From the NCBI GenBank assembly GCA_002007365.1, contig LNZR01000077.1:1-64000 (forward strand): a DNA stretch of 64,000 bases. Reading direction: 5' to 3'. A model generated the notes under the pieces. The model was not told the DNA's origin and ran no database searches. It saw nothing but the letters and a program-made list of their open reading frames with translations. How positions within the stretch are numbered: the stretch's first letter is position 1; each line of letters opens with the position of its first letter. This document shows positions 1 through 9,300 of the stretch, in pieces. The translations under genes and the position numbers were made by a program. This stretch comes from Epulopiscium sp. Nele67-Bin005. GTDB lineage: Bacteria; Bacillota; Clostridia; Lachnospirales; Cellulosilyticaceae.

Positions 1-120
1 AAATTTCATTTGGTGTAATATTAACATATTTTGATGTTGTTATAACAAATTGCTATACATAATACAAAATTTCATTTGTTATATGTTATTTTTCACAATG
101 ATTTATAAGGAGGATTTAAA

Positions 121-2592
121 ATGATAGGAACTCAACCATTTGACCAAACTTATAGCTTAGGTTATGAAGTGAACCACGATGATTGGTCGCCATTTCCACG
201 TGTTAACCGTTTACGCCAAACTTTTTTAGATAGACCGTATGAGGTTGATGTAGAAAGACTTCGTTTAGTTACACAGGCGTATAAAAATAATGAAAACGCT
301 CCTCGTAAATTACAATGTGCATACGCTTTTGAAAATATTTTGTTAAATACAACTTTGTATATTTATGAAAAAGATTTAATAGTTGGAGAAATTGCTGCAC
401 CAGCCAAAGCGTCTCCAATTTACCCAGAATTTTCCGTAAAATGGATTATTGATGAGATTTTACATCACCCATTTGAGGAGCGTGCAAACGACCAATTTTA
501 CATTAGAAATGATGAAGATAGAAAGGAAATCGTTGAGCTATGTAGATATTGGGAGGGCAAAACAGTAGATGATTTGGTGACGGCAAGGCTGGAAGAGGCT
601 CAAACTGTAGGTTCTCAAGTTGGTGATAAAGTTTTCCAAACAAATGTGTATCAATATGCAGGCATTGGACATTTGGCTATGGATTATCAAATGCTAATGG
701 AAGAAGGGTATAATGGAATTATTTCTCGTGCTAAAAATGCCCAATCTAAATTGAATAAAAAAGACCCTGAATACGCTGATAAACGTGACTTTTACAAAGC
801 AATGATAATTATGTTGGAGGCTTCTAAAAAGTATATTGAACGTTATGCAAACCTTGCAAAAGAGATGTCTAAATCAGAAACTGACCCAGCTAGAAAGCAA
901 GAATTGGAAAATATTTCTGATAACTGTTTTGCAATTGCAGGGCCTGCTCCTAAAACATTTTGGCAAGGTGTACAGCTGTTTAATATTGCAACAACGCTTA
1001 CTCAAATTGAAGGGAATGGACATTCGATTTCATATGGACGTATGGACCAATGGTTATATCCATTGTATAAAAATGAGATTGAAAAAGGCACTTTAACTAG
1101 AGAATTTGCCCTAGAAATTTTGGAAGTACAATTTGTTAAGATGAATAATCCTACAAAACTTAAAGATAAAGGAACGGTAATTGTTCGTAATGGTCGTGGA
1201 TTTGGAGGGGAAAGCCTTACAATTGGAGGTGTTGACTCACAAGGAAATGACGTTACAAATGACCTTACAATGTTGGTGTTAGAAGGTTCGGCACACACTA
1301 GAATGATGAACCCTTGGGTGTGTGTACGTATGCATGAAAATACACCGTATGAACTAAAAGTAAAAGCTGTTGAATGTATTCGTGCTGGATATGGTCACCC
1401 AAAATTATTTAACGATGCTCCAACTATTAAAGCTATGATGAAAAAAGGAATGCCACTTGAAGAAGCTCGTGATTATGTAGTAGTTGGGTGTGTTGAGCCA
1501 AGTTTACCTGGGAAAGAATTTGGTTGGCATGATGCTGCATATGTAAACACTGCAAAGATGATGGAAATGGTAATTAATGGTGGAATGTGTCTTGATGGAG
1601 GAGTATTTGGAAAGCAAATTGGGCCAAATACTGGTTCGTTAGAAACTTATCAAACGTTTGAAGAAGTGTTAGAAAGTGTGGATAAGCAATTTGACTATTG
1701 GTGTGACCAAATGTGTAGTAGTCTAAATATTATAGAAGATGCCCATATGATGAGAAAGCCAACGCCTTATGTTTCAGCGTTTTTCCCAAATTGTATAGAA
1801 ACTGGAAAAGATTTATCTGAAGGTGGAGCAAAATATAATGGTATTGGGCCTCAAGCTAGTGGTATCGCTACTTGTGCAGATAGTTTGGCAACAATTAAAC
1901 AACTTATGTTTGATGAAAAAAGTTATACAGGAGCTGAACTTTTGCAAGCAATTAAAGATAACTGGGAAGGTCATGAGAAACTTTATGCATTAGTTAATAG
2001 TGAAAAAATTCATCACTATGGTAATGATGATGATTATGCAGATGATTTGTTCAAATTTATGTTTGAATGTTATTGTAGACATATTGATGGCAGAATTACA
2101 AGACGTTCAGGTGGAAAATTTAGCCCAGGGGTATACTCTGTAAATGCTAATGTTGGAATGGGATTGTTTACAAATGCCTCATTAGATGGCCGTTTTAAAG
2201 GGGAAGCAATTTCGGATAACATGGGACCAGTCCACACTGATGGTGGTTCTCACGATATCGCAGGTCCAACAGCACTTGCAAATTCTGTAGGTAAAGTAGA
2301 CCATAGTATGGCTACAAATGGAACGTTATTAAACTTGAGATTTCCACAAGAAGCAGTGGCAGGAGTTGAAGGTCGTGATAATTTGGTGAACTTTATTGAC
2401 GCTTATATGTCAAGACAACCGATGCATGTTCAATTTAACATAATGAATGCCGCAACTATGAGAGCAGCCCAAGAAAACCCAGAAAAATACAAAGATATGC
2501 TTGTTCGTGTAGCAGGATATAGTGCGTATTTTGTAGAACTTGGAAAGCCTCTTCAAAAAGATTTAATCCAACGTACAGAACTTAACTTTTAA
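121..2592 (+). CDS. Glycyl radical enzyme (PFL-like family), candidate sulfonate C-S lyase
   Basis: 823 aa; active-site Cys/Glu motif GCVEP and C-terminal glycyl radical motif RVAGYSAYF; RBS aaggagg; adjacent activase and TauE/SafE-type exporter. Confidence 0.9.
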   Translation: MIGTQPFDQTYSLGYEVNHDDWSPFPRVNRLRQTFLDRPYEVDVERLRLVTQAYKNNENAPRKLQCAYAFENILLNTTLYIYEKDLIVGEIAAPAKASPIYPEFSVKWIIDEILHHPFEERANDQFYIRNDEDRKEIVELCRYWEGKTVDDLVTARLEEAQTVGSQVGDKVFQTNVYQYAGIGHLAMDYQMLMEEGYNGIISRAKNAQSKLNKKDPEYADKRDFYKAMIIMLEASKKYIERYANLAKEMSKSETDPARKQELENISDNCFAIAGPAPKTFWQGVQLFNIATTLTQIEGNGHSISYGRMDQWLYPLYKNEIEKGTLTREFALEILEVQFVKMNNPTKLKDKGTVIVRNGRGFGGESLTIGGVDSQGNDVTNDLTMLVLEGSAHTRMMNPWVCVRMHENTPYELKVKAVECIRAGYGHPKLFNDAPTIKAMMKKGMPLEEARDYVVVGCVEPSLPGKEFGWHDAAYVNTAKMMEMVINGGMCLDGGVFGKQIGPNTGSLETYQTFEEVLESVDKQFDYWCDQMCSSLNIIEDAHMMRKPTPYVSAFFPNCIETGKDLSEGGAKYNGIGPQASGIATCADSLATIKQLMFDEKSYTGAELLQAIKDNWEGHEKLYALVNSEKIHHYGNDDDYADDLFKFMFECYCRHIDGRITRRSGGKFSPGVYSVNANVGMGLFTNASLDGRFKGEAISDNMGPVHTDGGSHDIAGPTALANSVGKVDHSMATNGTLLNLRFPQEAVAGVEGRDNLVNFIDAYMSRQPMHVQFNIMNAATMRAAQENPEKYKDMLVRVAGYSAYFVELGKPLQKDLIQRTELNF

Positions 2593-2595
2593 TTA

Positions 2596-2618
2596 TTGAG
2601 GAGCTTTTTGCTCCTCAA
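2596..2618 (+). promoter_or_regulatory. Perfect intercistronic hairpin TTGAGGAGC-ttttt-GCTCCTCAA between GRE and exporter genes
   Basis: 9-bp perfect stem, 5-nt loop, starts 3 nt after the GRE stop; no U-tract follows. Confidence 0.75.
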
Positions 2619-2640
2619 ATTACATAATTTGAAAGGAGAT

Positions 2641-3438
2641 ATGTCTATGGTATTTGAATTTAATTACATTTTAGTAGGGCTTATGCAAATAGTAGGATTT
2701 TTTGTGCAAGGTTGTACAGGGTTTGGGTGTACGGTTATTGCTGCATCTGTAACAAATGGATTTTTGGGTACAGAAATAGGTGTACCATATGGAACATTGA
2801 TTACATTGCCATTCTTACTATATCTTGGAATTACAGGGATTAAAGATGTTTCTTGGAAAGACCTTGGAAAGATAGTTGTTCTTTGTTTACCTGGGCTATT
2901 TATCGGAAACTATTTAACATCAATTATATCAGAAACTCAAGCGAGAATTGGAATTGGGGCAATGGTAACGTTTATTGCTACAATGAATATTTACAAATGT
3001 ATAATTAAACCATTAGTTTTAAAGCATGAAGTTAGTGATGAAGATGTTCCAGATACACCAATTAGAATAGCTGTTCGTTATGGAGCGTTATTATTAGGGG
3101 GAATTGTTCATGGTGCATTTAACATTGGTGGGCCATTAATTACGGTGTATACTATTGCTGCTGTAAAACAAAAAGAGAAGTTCCGTAACACAATGACTTG
3201 GGTATGGATTGTTCTAAACTCGATTAATGCAGTGAATTTTTATAATGCAGGAAGACTTGCTTCACCAGAATTGTGGGGGTCATTAGCAGTAGGAGTACCT
3301 ATGGCTGGAGTTGGATTTTATTTTGGTATGAGATATTTAGCGAAAATTAACCGTGAGCAATTTTTACGAGTTGTATACGTGGTACTATTCATTATTGGGG
3401 CAGATATGTTAATTAGAAATTTAATGGTATTATTTTAG
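2641..3438 (+). CDS. TauE/SafE (TSUP) family membrane exporter
   Basis: Multi-TM protein with TSUP-like glycine/proline repeats; start set at an ATG after gaaaggagat rather than at the ORF-track start 2596. Confidence 0.75.
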   Translation: MSMVFEFNYILVGLMQIVGFFVQGCTGFGCTVIAASVTNGFLGTEIGVPYGTLITLPFLLYLGITGIKDVSWKDLGKIVVLCLPGLFIGNYLTSIISETQARIGIGAMVTFIATMNIYKCIIKPLVLKHEVSDEDVPDTPIRIAVRYGALLLGGIVHGAFNIGGPLITVYTIAAVKQKEKFRNTMTWVWIVLNSINAVNFYNAGRLASPELWGSLAVGVPMAGVGFYFGMRYLAKINREQFLRVVYVVLFIIGADMLIRNLMVLF

Positions 3439-3500
3439 TATATTATAAAGGAAGAAACTCGTACCATTTTGGGATTTAATAAGGAAAGTGAGGGGTAATT

Positions 3501-4451
3501 ATGGATAGTGGTATAATTTTTAATGTTCAGAGATATACAATTCACGATGGACCAGGGCTTAGAACAGAATTTTTTTTGAAGGGTTGCCCCTTGCGTTGTC
3601 CTTGGTGTGGCAATCCCGAAAGCCAAAAGTCCAACATAGAGCTGGGAATATATTCCAAAAAATGTATTGGAGTTGAGAAATGTGGAGATTGTATACAGGT
3701 TTGTAAACAACAGTCCTTATTGTTTTCGGAAGATGGAAAAATTCATTCGATTGACAAAAAAAAATGTGTTAACTGTCGTTTATGTGCGAAAATTTGCCCG
3801 TCTGTAGCAATTAAGGAGTGGGGTAAAGTTATGAGCGTTGAAGATTGCATGGAAATTGTACGAAAAGATAAGCATTTTTATGAAACTTCGGGGGGTGGAG
3901 TAACAATTTCAGGTGGTGACCCTTTAGTTCAGGTGGAGTTTGTAGTAAAATTATTTAAGGCCTGCCGACTGGAAAAAATTCACACCTGTTTTGAGTCAGA
4001 TTTTCATGCGAAATTTAACAAAGTTGAAAAGTTGCTTCCTTATACAGATTTATTTATTGCAGATTTAAAACATATGGACAGCTTAATTCACAAACAATTT
4101 ACAGGGGTAGGCAATGAGCTTATACTTGAATGTTTGGAACAGCTTGCAAAAACAGGGATACCTATTATATTAAGAATACCTATTATTCCAAATTTTAATG
4201 ACACTCAAAAAAATATGGAACAAACAGCAGATTTTATATTAAATAACATGAATAATAATGTACGAACGTTACAGCTTCTAAGTTTTATGCGCCTTGGTGA
4301 GGAGAAGTATAAATCGCTTAACTTGCCATACCCTATGCAAGATTTGGAGGTGGATAGAGAAGTTTTAACCCAAAAAGTTCATAAATATGTAGAATATTTT
4401 AGCAGTCGTGGAATTCATGCAATAGCAGGCACTAAGGAAAAACACATTTAG
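3501..4451 (+). CDS. Glycyl radical enzyme activating protein (radical SAM)
   Basis: CPLRCPWC radical SAM motif, two ferredoxin-like Cys clusters (CGDCIQVC, CVNCRLCAKICP), DGPGLRTEFFLKGCPLRCPWCGNPES signature. Confidence 0.92.
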   Translation: MDSGIIFNVQRYTIHDGPGLRTEFFLKGCPLRCPWCGNPESQKSNIELGIYSKKCIGVEKCGDCIQVCKQQSLLFSEDGKIHSIDKKKCVNCRLCAKICPSVAIKEWGKVMSVEDCMEIVRKDKHFYETSGGGVTISGGDPLVQVEFVVKLFKACRLEKIHTCFESDFHAKFNKVEKLLPYTDLFIADLKHMDSLIHKQFTGVGNELILECLEQLAKTGIPIILRIPIIPNFNDTQKNMEQTADFILNNMNNNVRTLQLLSFMRLGEEKYKSLNLPYPMQDLEVDREVLTQKVHKYVEYFSSRGIHAIAGTKEKHI

Positions 4452-4461
4452 GAGGTGTCTT

Positions 4462-5916
4462 ATGAGTACAAACGACAACACAGTAAACACACAAATGCGA
4501 ATTATACACATTTTACTAGGCCCATTAATTTTTCTTTTATGTAGCATATTTTTTGCAAACGCCCTATCTCCAACGGGTGCGCAATCAATAGGGGTGCTAT
4601 TTTGGATGATTTTTTGGTGGATAGCTCGACCAGTAGACATAACGATTACAGGAATGTTACCAGTAATAATTAATGCAATTTATAATATTGTACCAATGTC
4701 AACAGTAACTTCTTCATACGTATCAGATAGTATAATATTAATTTTTGGTTCTGGGCTTTTGTGTATGGCTTGGCCAAAAATAGGGTTGGATAAACGAATT
4801 GCACTACGAACATTATCGCTTATTGGGCCTTCCATGAAATCACAAATTACGGGTTGGCTTTTGGCAAGTATCGTCTTATCTACAATGATGCCAAACGTTG
4901 CAGTATGTGCATTGTTTTGCCCAATAGCAGTTTCTATGTTTAAGGCTGCTGGTTATGAGGACATAACAAAATGTAAGCCAGCAGTTCCAATTTTGCTTGC
5001 TGTAGGTTGGGGTGTAAGCCTTGGTGGTTCGGCATCTCCACTAGGTGGGGCAATGAATTTGGTTGCCATTTCGCAAATAGAACAATATACTGGAGTTGAA
5101 TTTATGTATATTGATTGGGTAATTAGAACGCTTCCTTATACAGTGCTTGCCTCTGGATTATTGCTTGCTGGAATGCTTATGATGCCGCTTGATGTTAAGC
5201 AACTTAGTGGAACAAAGGAATATTTTAAAAAGAGTTATGCCGATTTAGGGCCTATGAAACGTGATGAAATAATATGCGCTATTTTGTTTATAATTACGGT
5301 TGTGGGAGCGTTTTTGAGACCTCTCTACCAAGATATTTTTCCAGCATTAGCACCAGCGTATTTATTTTTGATTATGGGAAGTTTAACATTTTTTATAAGT
5401 TCATCTCATGATAAAAACTTTTTGGTTAGTTGGAATGAAGCTCAAGAAGGTACGATGTGGGGAATGATGATTTTATTTGGAGGAGGTTTGGCACTTGGTC
5501 AGCTGATAAATAATTCAGGGGCAAGTACGAATATTGCAAGTATAATCTCATCTCTATCATTAGACGGAGGTATAACAACTATAATTGTATTCGTAATTGT
5601 TGCCAGAGTTTTATCAGAAGTTACAAATAGCACAACTTCAGCAGCTGTAGTAGTACCAATAGTTATAGGGTTTGCAACACAAGTTGGACTAAACGTTTTG
5701 CCATACTGGTTAATAATTACAATGGCCTTTAATGCCGAATTTATGCTACCAATTAGCGTACGAGCAATACCAGTAGCGTACGGGCTAGACGCAAGTACTA
5801 TGTTAAAATCAGGATTTATTATGTCAGCAATGAATGTAATTTTAGTAATAGCATTTGGTTATATAGCGATGAATAATTGGTCATTGTTCCATTATTTATC
5901 AAATTTTAATTTTTAA
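4462..5916 (+). CDS. SLC13/DASS-type anion:sodium symporter
   Basis: 484 aa polytopic protein with motifs such as MMPNVAVCALFCPIA and EVTNSTTSAAVVVPI. Confidence 0.75.
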   Translation: MSTNDNTVNTQMRIIHILLGPLIFLLCSIFFANALSPTGAQSIGVLFWMIFWWIARPVDITITGMLPVIINAIYNIVPMSTVTSSYVSDSIILIFGSGLLCMAWPKIGLDKRIALRTLSLIGPSMKSQITGWLLASIVLSTMMPNVAVCALFCPIAVSMFKAAGYEDITKCKPAVPILLAVGWGVSLGGSASPLGGAMNLVAISQIEQYTGVEFMYIDWVIRTLPYTVLASGLLLAGMLMMPLDVKQLSGTKEYFKKSYADLGPMKRDEIICAILFIITVVGAFLRPLYQDIFPALAPAYLFLIMGSLTFFISSSHDKNFLVSWNEAQEGTMWGMMILFGGGLALGQLINNSGASTNIASIISSLSLDGGITTIIVFVIVARVLSEVTNSTTSAAVVVPIVIGFATQVGLNVLPYWLIITMAFNAEFMLPISVRAIPVAYGLDASTMLKSGFIMSAMNVILVIAFGYIAMNNWSLFHYLSNFNF

Positions 5917-5934
5917 TAATAGGGGGATTTAGCG

Positions 5935-7083
5935 ATGAAAGATTTTAGATTTAAAGTTCCACAAACTATTGAATTTGGACTTGGAAGCCTCAAAAAGCTA
6001 CCAGAATTTCTTGAGGAAAACAACTCACAACACGTATTTTTAATATCAGATAAAGGATTAGAAAGTATTGGTCTTGTAGATAAAGTACAAAAAATCATTT
6101 CTGATAGTGGTATAAGTTGTACAACATTTTTAGAAATATCTCCAAATCCTACTATTGAGATGGTAAACGAAGCCGCAAAACTTTATAAACAATGTGGAGC
6201 AACTAGCATCGTGGCACTTGGTGGTGGAAGCCCTATAGATGTTGCAAAAGCTGTTGGGGTGCTTGTAGTTTATGGTGGCAAAATTACGGATTATGAAGGT
6301 ATGCACAAAGTTCCAGGTCCAATTGTTCCTATGATTGTTATTCCAACAACTGCAGGAACAGGAAGTGAGGCTACAGCATCAGCCGTTATTACAGATGAAC
6401 AAAGAAACTATAAAATGACCGTATTTACTTATGAAATTTTACCAAAATACGCAATACTCGACCCAGAACTTATTATGACAGCTCCAGCTTCAATTTCAGC
6501 AGCTTGTGGAGTAGATGCATTTATTCACGCATTAGAGGCTTATATTTCAAGAAACGCTTCTCCGTTTTCTGATATGATGGCAGAAAAAGCTATGGAATTA
6601 ATCGGTAGAAGTTTGAGAAGATTTGTTGCAAATAGAAGCGATGTGGAGGCAGCTTGTGATATGATGGCAGGTTCAAATTTTGCAGGAATATCGTTTGCTT
6701 GGGCAAGACTTGGGAATATTCATGCACTCAGTCACCCAGTAAGTGCATATTTTCACGTACCTCATGGTGTGGCAAATGCAATTTTGATGCCAACAGTTAT
6801 CGAGTATAATGCACTTGCTGACAATGGTAGATACGAAAAAATTTATAACTATATTAGCACCCAAAAAGAGCCTGTGCAAAACTTTAAACCAGAAATGTTA
6901 GCTGAAGAACTTAGAAATCTCAATCAAGATTTGGGAATTCCAAATAATTTATCGGCTGTTGGAGTAACTGAAGATTTAATAGAAACTATGGCAAAAGATG
7001 CTATGACGAGTGGAAATATTTTGGCAAATCCACGCCAAAGCACAGTTGTAGACCTTGTAAATTTATACAAAAAAGCATTATAA
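5935..7083 (+). CDS. Iron-containing alcohol dehydrogenase
   Basis: GGGSPIDVAKAVGV and metal-binding His region (ALSHPVSAYFHVPHGVANAILMP) typical of group III ADHs. Confidence 0.9.
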   Translation: MKDFRFKVPQTIEFGLGSLKKLPEFLEENNSQHVFLISDKGLESIGLVDKVQKIISDSGISCTTFLEISPNPTIEMVNEAAKLYKQCGATSIVALGGGSPIDVAKAVGVLVVYGGKITDYEGMHKVPGPIVPMIVIPTTAGTGSEATASAVITDEQRNYKMTVFTYEILPKYAILDPELIMTAPASISAACGVDAFIHALEAYISRNASPFSDMMAEKAMELIGRSLRRFVANRSDVEAACDMMAGSNFAGISFAWARLGNIHALSHPVSAYFHVPHGVANAILMPTVIEYNALADNGRYEKIYNYISTQKEPVQNFKPEMLAEELRNLNQDLGIPNNLSAVGVTEDLIETMAKDAMTSGNILANPRQSTVVDLVNLYKKAL

Positions 7084-7089
7084 TATATG

Positions 7090-7113
7090 CCTTCCTCTTT
7101 GGAAGGTTTTTTT
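7090..7113 (+). terminator. Intrinsic terminator of the GRE operon
   Basis: CCTTCC-tcttt-GGAAGG followed by TTTTTTT directly after the ADH stop. Confidence 0.85.
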
Positions 7114-7191
7114 ATTTCTCGTGTTGTAATATCAATAAATAGTTGCTATGTATGTTATAATAAATTTAAAATTTTGAAAGGACTAGGTGAT

Positions 7192-8145
7192 ATGAAAGAA
7201 ATTGGTTTTATGGAAGTTGGAAAATTTAAGATTGGTCACGCTCAAGATGTTGAAGGAGCAACGGGTTGTACGGTTTTTTTGCCAGATGAATGTGCAGTAG
7301 CTGGGGTGGATATTAGAGGTGGTGGACCTGCTTCAAGAGAGGCTCATTTATTAGATAGTCAAATGGCTGCAACAGGAATTCATGCAATTTTATTATCTGG
7401 AGGTTCTGCGTTTGGGCTAGATGCAGCAGGTGGAGTTATGCAATTTTTGGAAGAAAGAAATATTGGATTTGATGTTGGAGTAACCAAAGTCCCTTTGGTG
7501 TGTCAAAGTTCGCTTTTTGATTTGATGGTTGGGGATATGAAAGCAAGACCAAATAAAGAAATGGCGTATGAAGCTTGTCAAAATGCTAGTTATAACGAAA
7601 ATGAACAAGGTAATATTGGTGCTGGAACTGGCTGTACTGTAGGAAAAGTTTTAGGTCCTAAATATGCAATGAAATGTGGGCTTGGAACTTATGCTACTCA
7701 ACTTGGAGATATAAAGGTTGGTGCGTTAGTTGCAGTTAATGCACTTGGTGATATTTATAACCCAGAAACAGGCAAACAAGTTGCTGGGCTATTAACTCCA
7801 AACAAAACTAGTTTGCGTTCTTCAGAAAGTGTTTTATATGAGCAGACTCAGCCTAATTTATTTACAGGAAATACTACACTTGGCATAGTCGTTACCAACT
7901 GCAAATTTAGCAAATCTGAAATGAATAAAATTGCAAGTATGGCTCATAATGGATACGCTCGTGCAATTAGCCCTGTGCATACTACTGCTGATGGTGATAG
8001 TATTTATGCTGTTTCTACAGGAGAAGTTGAGTCCGATGTTAATGTTATTGGAACGCTTGCTTCTCGAGTAATTGAAAAAGCTATTTTGAGTGCTGTTTTG
8101 CATACAAAGAGTGCCTATGGATTTAAAGGGGATTACCCCCTCTAA
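7192..8145 (+). CDS. P1 family (DmpA/S58-like) peptidase
   Basis: GATGCTVFLPD, ILLSGGSAFGLDAAGGVMQFLEE and GNIGAGTGCTVGK motifs; start moved from 7087 to an ATG with RBS because the upstream part contains a terminator. Confidence 0.85.
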   Translation: MKEIGFMEVGKFKIGHAQDVEGATGCTVFLPDECAVAGVDIRGGGPASREAHLLDSQMAATGIHAILLSGGSAFGLDAAGGVMQFLEERNIGFDVGVTKVPLVCQSSLFDLMVGDMKARPNKEMAYEACQNASYNENEQGNIGAGTGCTVGKVLGPKYAMKCGLGTYATQLGDIKVGALVAVNALGDIYNPETGKQVAGLLTPNKTSLRSSESVLYEQTQPNLFTGNTTLGIVVTNCKFSKSEMNKIASMAHNGYARAISPVHTTADGDSIYAVSTGEVESDVNVIGTLASRVIEKAILSAVLHTKSAYGFKGDYPL

Positions 8146-8154
8146 AATATAGGA

Positions 8155-9123
8155 TTACACTAATTTTCTAAGTTCTATAGCTCTATATCTAAAAGGAATA
8201 TATGTTTTTGGATCTTCAATTAAGGTATCTGTAAAATTGATAATCATATCCCTAATTGCTGGAGAACTTAGTTCTTTGTTTAACTTTGCGATGTTCTTTA
8301 ATAATAAATTAGCTGGATCATTTAATGCTTTATCAAAATCATAAAGAGGTGCTTGGGATTTTGCATTGGTATCTACATTTACCAAATATCCAAAATTTCC
8401 TGAGTGCCTATCTGTATTTCCGATTATTGCATCTATAATCAACATTTCTAGTCCAAAATCAAATTCATTTATGATATCATACATACTATACCCACACCCA
8501 GAATACAAAACGTGGCTACTTGCTGGCTCTAAATAATTAAAAGCGTTAGTAAAATTGGTAGTTTGCGTGTATTTTTCGGTTAATAAATAAGGAGCAACAG
8601 GTACATTTAATTGTTTACATAACTTATAACTTTCGTATTCATTTTGGTTATATGGCTTTAATAAAATTGTTTTATCTATCCAATGTTTATCCAAAACGCC
8701 ATTTGTAATAATGGTAGGGATAGAGCCTGTCCGATATTTTGGCAAATTATCAAGGGTTGACCCCCAAAACAGCTGATAATATGGCGAAATATCTTCAAAT
8801 TTAATATGACTAGTTTCTTCTTTTATCCAATATAAATCTGATAGAGATAGCAAATATGTTTTGATATCAAAGTTTTTGTGGTTATTTTTTAGGGCATGGC
8901 GCAAAAGCAGAGTTGCAGTCTTATTTTTTTTATTACTTTTTCTAATATTTCTCCAGTTTATAAAAGCCTCATAACAAGGATTTGTCTGTAAAACTTGAGG
9001 TAAATGGTTGGTAGAAATTATAGTGTTAGTTGTAATGTTATATAAAGGAGTATTTTTAACGTATAGTATTAAGTTTGGTGTTGCTGTTGTTGATTTAAAT
9101 AAAATTTTATCAAATTTCCCCAT
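8155..9123 (-). CDS. HipA-like protein kinase, no HipB partner
   Basis: HipA-type catalytic segment IIGNTDRHSGNFGYLVN...APLYDFDKAL; start at MGKFDK preceded by GAGGAGAGG RBS. Confidence 0.7.
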   Translation of the reverse strand: MGKFDKILFKSTTATPNLILYVKNTPLYNITTNTIISTNHLPQVLQTNPCYEAFINWRNIRKSNKKNKTATLLLRHALKNNHKNFDIKTYLLSLSDLYWIKEETSHIKFEDISPYYQLFWGSTLDNLPKYRTGSIPTIITNGVLDKHWIDKTILLKPYNQNEYESYKLCKQLNVPVAPYLLTEKYTQTTNFTNAFNYLEPASSHVLYSGCGYSMYDIINEFDFGLEMLIIDAIIGNTDRHSGNFGYLVNVDTNAKSQAPLYDFDKALNDPANLLLKNIAKLNKELSSPAIRDMIINFTDTLIEDPKTYIPFRYRAIELRKLV

Positions 9124-9300
9124 AACTTTCCTCTCCTCAATAGTGTTTATTGCAGTATTGCCAAAAAAAAATCTTCTTAAACACATCAAAAAATTTTTTT
9201 ATATATTATATTACTAGCAACAACTTTTAATGCCTCCCCCTATACAAAAATAATAATTACGATACAATTAACATAGAAAATTATACTAAAGGAGAACATT

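Follow-up and report, generated by a model that had tools for sequence, protein, structure and literature searches.

The window analysed here covers the opening 64 kb of contig C77 (84,330 bp), which belongs to a draft genome of 2.09 Mb that consists of 90 contigs and is 89% complete. Five open reading frames on the same strand, separated by short gaps, occupy positions 121-7083 and have Pfam matches far beyond chance (PFL-like and Gly_radical; TauE; Radical_SAM with ferredoxin-type clusters; CitMHS/Na_sulph_symp; Fe-ADH), which confirms as real the five genes that an earlier note on this DNA had listed (Table 1). The operon stands at the contig end; therefore the contig has only 120 bp of sequence ahead of the gene for the glycyl radical enzyme (GRE). 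The upstream stretch that is present contains AAGGAGG, the ribosome-binding site ahead of the HpfG start, and the direct repeat AAATTTCATTTG at positions 1 and 67; this 12-mer is seen twice in the window, and both copies lie within the first 120 positions. The terminator that the earlier note had set at the end of the operon was also found, as a stem of 7 pairs (7089-7107) with TTTTTTATTT behind it. Since terminator-like sites are no more frequent in the region than in shuffled sequences (5 found, 4.8 expected), this call rests on its position and the T run.

Directly past the terminator a peptidase family S58 (DmpA-type) gene at 7192-8145 (+) apparently forms its own transcription unit. The product of the gene at 8155-9189 (-) matches the HipA C-terminal model only weakly, with 27.5 bits where the Pfam cut-off is 30.5.

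Table 1. Features of the predicted hpf operon and homologues of a candidate regulator (positions refer to the window unless a locus is named)
Feature	Position	Strand	Basis
Upstream region at contig end; possible regulatory region	1..120	+	Direct repeat and ribosome-binding site, sequence read directly
hpfG, predicted glycyl radical DHPS dehydratase, 823 aa	121..2592	+	NCBIfam NF048009; identity to Klebsiella HpfG; HpfG clade
TauE/SafE-family permease, 263 aa from the ATG behind AAAGGAGA; putative function	2647..3438	+	PF01925, 69.0 bits
hpfH, predicted radical-SAM activating enzyme of HpfG, 316 aa	3501..4451	+	NCBIfam NF048008; radical-SAM motif
DASS/SLC13-family anion transporter, 484 aa; putative function	4462..5916	+	PF00939/PF03600; TIGR00785 below cut-off
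hpfD, predicted Fe-dependent 3-sulfopropionaldehyde reductase, 382 aa	5935..7083	+	PF00465 and PF25137; identity to hpfG-adjacent ADHs
Intrinsic terminator of the operon	7089..7117	+	7-pair stem and T run
LuxR/GerE-type regulator homologues	L006:5690-6799; L009:5714-6817; L015:5658-6767; L115:7528-8637

Identity of the encoded proteins

Both GRE motifs reported earlier are present, GCVEP from residue 456 and RVAGYS from residue 796 onwards, and the glycine of the latter is presumably the radical site, as in the family. On the NCBIfam model for HpfG (NF048009) the protein scores 1672.9 bits with a cut-off of 1000 (Klebsiella spallanzanii HpfG, 1721.7 bits), while its scores on other GRE models are all far below the respective cut-offs (HpsG 486 bits with a cut-off of 1000, CutC 514 bits, HypD 541 bits). 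Identity amounts to 75.9-86.6% for HpfG proteins (Klebsiella HpfG 78%), 38.8% for glycerol dehydratase and 28.7-31.0% for IslA and HpsG. A maximum-likelihood tree combined the window protein with 14 GREs encoded in other genomes and with solved GREs, namely IslA (5ymr, 7kq3), HpsG (6lon), glycerol dehydratase (1r8w) and two more; we take 6lon to be HpsG, the structure entry itself giving only a GRE. Within this tree the window GRE falls inside the HpfG clade (100/100 support) together with the proteins of Klebsiella, Hungatella, Enterococcus and E. viviparus and next to its family relatives, and IslA and HpsG form a separate clade, also with 100/100 support. As judged from these comparisons the GRE is HpfG, the predicted dehydratase of 2,3-dihydroxypropanesulfonate (DHPS), and not IslA or HpsG. 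The substrate, which the earlier note held could not be fixed from the sequence by eye, is thereby assigned as DHPS by orthology. HpfG was reportedly first described in a 2020 PNAS paper; in the E. coli genome collection no HpfG was found at near identity.

The NCBIfam model for the HpsG type (NF048011) is, like NF048009, described as a dehydratase, but the literature names HpsG a sulfolyase. Proteins above the NF048011 cut-off, e.g. that of locus L124, are nearest to the IslA and HpsG structures, and the name of the model may mislead annotation.

The activase passes the HpfH model (NF048008) by only 1.4 bits (501.4 versus a cut-off of 500). It has kept the CxxxCxxC motif of radical-SAM proteins (CPLRCPWC) and shares at most 61% identity with any other HpfH compared, and 56% with those of family relatives; we regard it as a probable HpfH that is barely over the cut-off. 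For the Fe-ADH no NCBIfam equivalog scored above its cut-off. Its identity to ADHs encoded next to hpfG reaches 66-77% in many loci, 76% in Hungatella hathewayi and 85% in a relative, and by this orthology it is assigned as HpfD. According to reviews, HpfD has been characterised from H. hathewayi and E. gilvus.

The TauE/SafE permease and the DASS transporter are 53-68% and 48-61% identical, respectively, to their counterparts at other hpfG loci, and are likely the exporter of the sulfonate product and the importer of DHPS. Transporter substrates are not readable from sequence, and in E. gilvus TauE is described as a probable exporter of 3-sulfopropionate and a different protein, HpfE, as that of 3-hydroxypropanesulfonate (PMC11489063). 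Because of this division of roles, transport is the weakest step of the predicted route.

Predicted route and alternative readings

We propose, with a probability of about 0.87, that the five genes form an hpf operon for the fermentative use of DHPS, a plant- and algal-derived sulfonate, as electron sink, in which the C-S bond would be kept and no sulfite would arise. DHPS would be taken up by the DASS transporter, HpfH would install the glycyl radical on HpfG, and HpfG would remove water from DHPS to yield 3-sulfopropionaldehyde with the C-S bond intact. HpfD would then reduce the aldehyde with NADH to 3-hydroxypropanesulfonate, which may leave the cell through the TauE/SafE permease, and the cell would gain a sink for its fermentation NADH. 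This sequence of reactions, with export of the product, is described for HpfG, HpfH and HpfD, and DHPS serves fermenters as an NADH sink by this route (PMC11489063; PMC12890257). It corrects the predicted end product, in that sulfur would stay in 3-hydroxypropanesulfonate instead of joining a route from sulfite to H2S. Bilophila wadsworthia could not use 3-hydroxypropanesulfonate as electron acceptor (PMC11489063).

The bifurcated version of the DHPS pathway described for E. gilvus, in which HpfXYZ oxidises part of the aldehyde to 3-sulfopropionate with a gain of ATP and TauE exports this product, appears very improbable for the window. The role of the E. gilvus TauE would suit it, but the 89%-complete genome yielded no match to ATP-grasp_2 (HpfYZ-type, PF08442), and the sole match to the Enterococcus hpf-linked aldehyde dehydrogenase (38%) lies on another contig and reads as AdhE-type. 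With no HpfYZ-type gene found, we favour the simple route without bifurcation.

We give even less credence to an ordinary diol fermentation, in which the substrate of the GRE would be glycerol or 1,2-propanediol, diols without a sulfonate group, and the reaction again a dehydration. The closest solved structure is indeed the B12-independent glycerol dehydratase 1r8w (38.8% identity), and the window GRE carries GCVEPSLPGKEFGWHD, which resembles GCVEPQKPGKTEGWHD of that enzyme, and shares GCVEP and GWHD with it. However, a branch of 1.42 changes per site separates it from glycerol dehydratase, its position is inside the HpfG clade, the HpfG equivalog score argues for DHPS, and a neutral diol would not need the linked anion and TauE transporters.

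Least credible is the earlier reading of the GRE as an IslA- or HpsG-like C-S lyase that releases sulfite for export by TauE, with the Fe-ADH reducing acetaldehyde or hydroxyacetone: the clustering of GRE, activase, permease, anion transporter and Fe-ADH would agree with it, but the low identity to IslA and HpsG, their separate clade, the low HpsG model score and the active site all speak against it. In IseG (IslA) the sulfonate is held by Arg187, Gln191 and Arg676 (PMC6453916). At these positions, taken from the aligned motifs FRSSIQ and VRYVPF of the GRE alignment, the window protein has Ala180, His184 and Gly670, so that the sulfonate triad is absent, and the sulfite-lyase motif GC(T/I)E(A/I/T)RMPNRDT is likewise absent, its place being taken by GCVEPSLPGKEFGWHD; the dehydratase-like motif GCVEP...GWHD is present. 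The residue comparison with IslA that the earlier note had suggested thus turned out against a lyase, and so did the placement of the GRE, which clusters with the dehydratase HpfG.

What stands of the earlier interpretation is anaerobic organosulfonate metabolism built on a GRE, since HpfG also acts on a sulfonate, together with a likely importer, reduction of an aldehyde by the Fe-ADH and a likely exporter; the cleavage of the C-S bond and the export of sulfite have to be given up, as the predicted pathway makes none. The missing dissimilatory sulfite reductase had been read as a sign of sulfite export, but a pathway in which no sulfite occurs is the simpler reason. A NIR_SIR match in the genome was rejected as sulfite reductase; it is a stand-alone protein of 241 aa beside a hemC-like gene and not evidently dissimilatory.

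Family context and possible history of the operon

The giant fish symbiont Epulonipiscium and the host are members of one family, and Candidatus Epulonipiscium viviparus and further Epulopiscium genomes are among the host's relatives. Several of these relatives carry hpf genes beside sulfo-TAL (sulfoquinovose) genes; HpfG and the linkage of hpf with sulfo-TAL in Epulopiscium have already been reported (PMC11489063). In gene-by-gene searches, SqvD, YihU and YihQ of E. viviparus had no match in the 89%-complete draft genome of the host. A transaldolase match on contig C73 was rejected as SqvA, as it is an ordinary transaldolase (41% identity) that shares a single frame with an unrelated repeat protein. 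Since SqvD, YihU and YihQ were not found in the draft and a DASS transporter is present, the host probably takes up DHPS from outside. In a family with gut symbionts of herbivorous fish, this would add a scavenger of DHPS to the degraders of sulfoquinovose.

HpfG and HpfD follow the family relatives, but HpfH, TauE and DASS do not group with the relatives' versions, with the reservation that HpfH sits on a long branch and is weakly placed. In the relatives hpfH precedes hpfG, whereas in the window tauE-hpfH-DASS lies between hpfG and hpfD. Because both grouping and position of this block differ from the relatives, a local replacement is suggested. Tentatively, and with more doubt than confidence, we consider that the lineage, which would once have produced its DHPS from sulfoquinovose, came to use DHPS released by neighbours. 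In this reading the sulfo-TAL genes and the hpfH upstream would have disappeared, hpfG and hpfD would have been retained by vertical descent, and tauE-hpfH-DASS would have entered between them from another lineage. The operon is of a known kind, and the local rearrangement is the only new point.

Comparison with known systems

Of 50 hpfG loci with a length of 17 kb or more, 49 have HpfH, 26 HpfD, 15 TauE and 9 DASS. These counts vary with flank length and with the identity thresholds, which were chosen by us. All four occur together in 8 of the 50, in Klebsiella, Superficieibacter, an Escherichia sp., three Enterococcus and the MAGs of a Ruminococcus and a Hespellia. At 33 retrieved hpfG loci, from Klebsiella to Hungatella and mostly just before hpfH, a protein of 366-369 aa with a C-terminal LuxR/GerE helix-turn-helix is encoded, which is probably a DHPS-responsive regulator of the hpf cluster. 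It has no other recognised domain and is a conserved neighbour of hpfGH across phyla. The host genome has one copy, on contig C81 (L123:8791-9891), which ends 61 bp from the contig end and points towards it. This gene may lie directly upstream of the window, the adjacency of C81 and C77 being a guess; the two contigs share no end overlap, their longest common word near the end having 12 bp and lying elsewhere. The first 1.5 kb of C81 (L123:1-1490) contain no long bacterial ORF ahead of a truncated infB-like gene and differ in character from the rest; they are possibly a chimeric or contaminant contig end.

IslA/IseG and the DHPS sulfolyase HpsG are also GREs acting on short sulfonates, but they cleave the C-S bond, have a different active-site motif and belong to another clade, with 29-31% identity to the window GRE. 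The B12-independent glycerol/propanediol dehydratase resembles the window GRE in its radical dehydration chemistry and in GCVEP and GWHD; unlike HpfG, it has a neutral diol as substrate and is without sulfonate-linked transporters. The extended sulfo-TAL clusters of Epulopiscium and Candidatus Epulonipiscium viviparus lead from sulfoquinovose to 3-hydroxypropanesulfonate with an HpfG 85% and an HpfD 72% identical to those of the window, but have SqvA, YihU, SqvD and YihQ beside hpf and a different TauE. The Klebsiella-type hpf cluster, which converts DHPS to 3-hydroxypropanesulfonate, comprises the same five gene families as the window (identity to Klebsiella spallanzanii L006: HpfG 78%, HpfD 72%, TauE 63%, DASS 61%, HpfH 58%), while the order in L006 is DASS-hpfD-luxR-hpfH-hpfG-tauE as compared to hpfG-tauE-hpfH-DASS-hpfD in the window.
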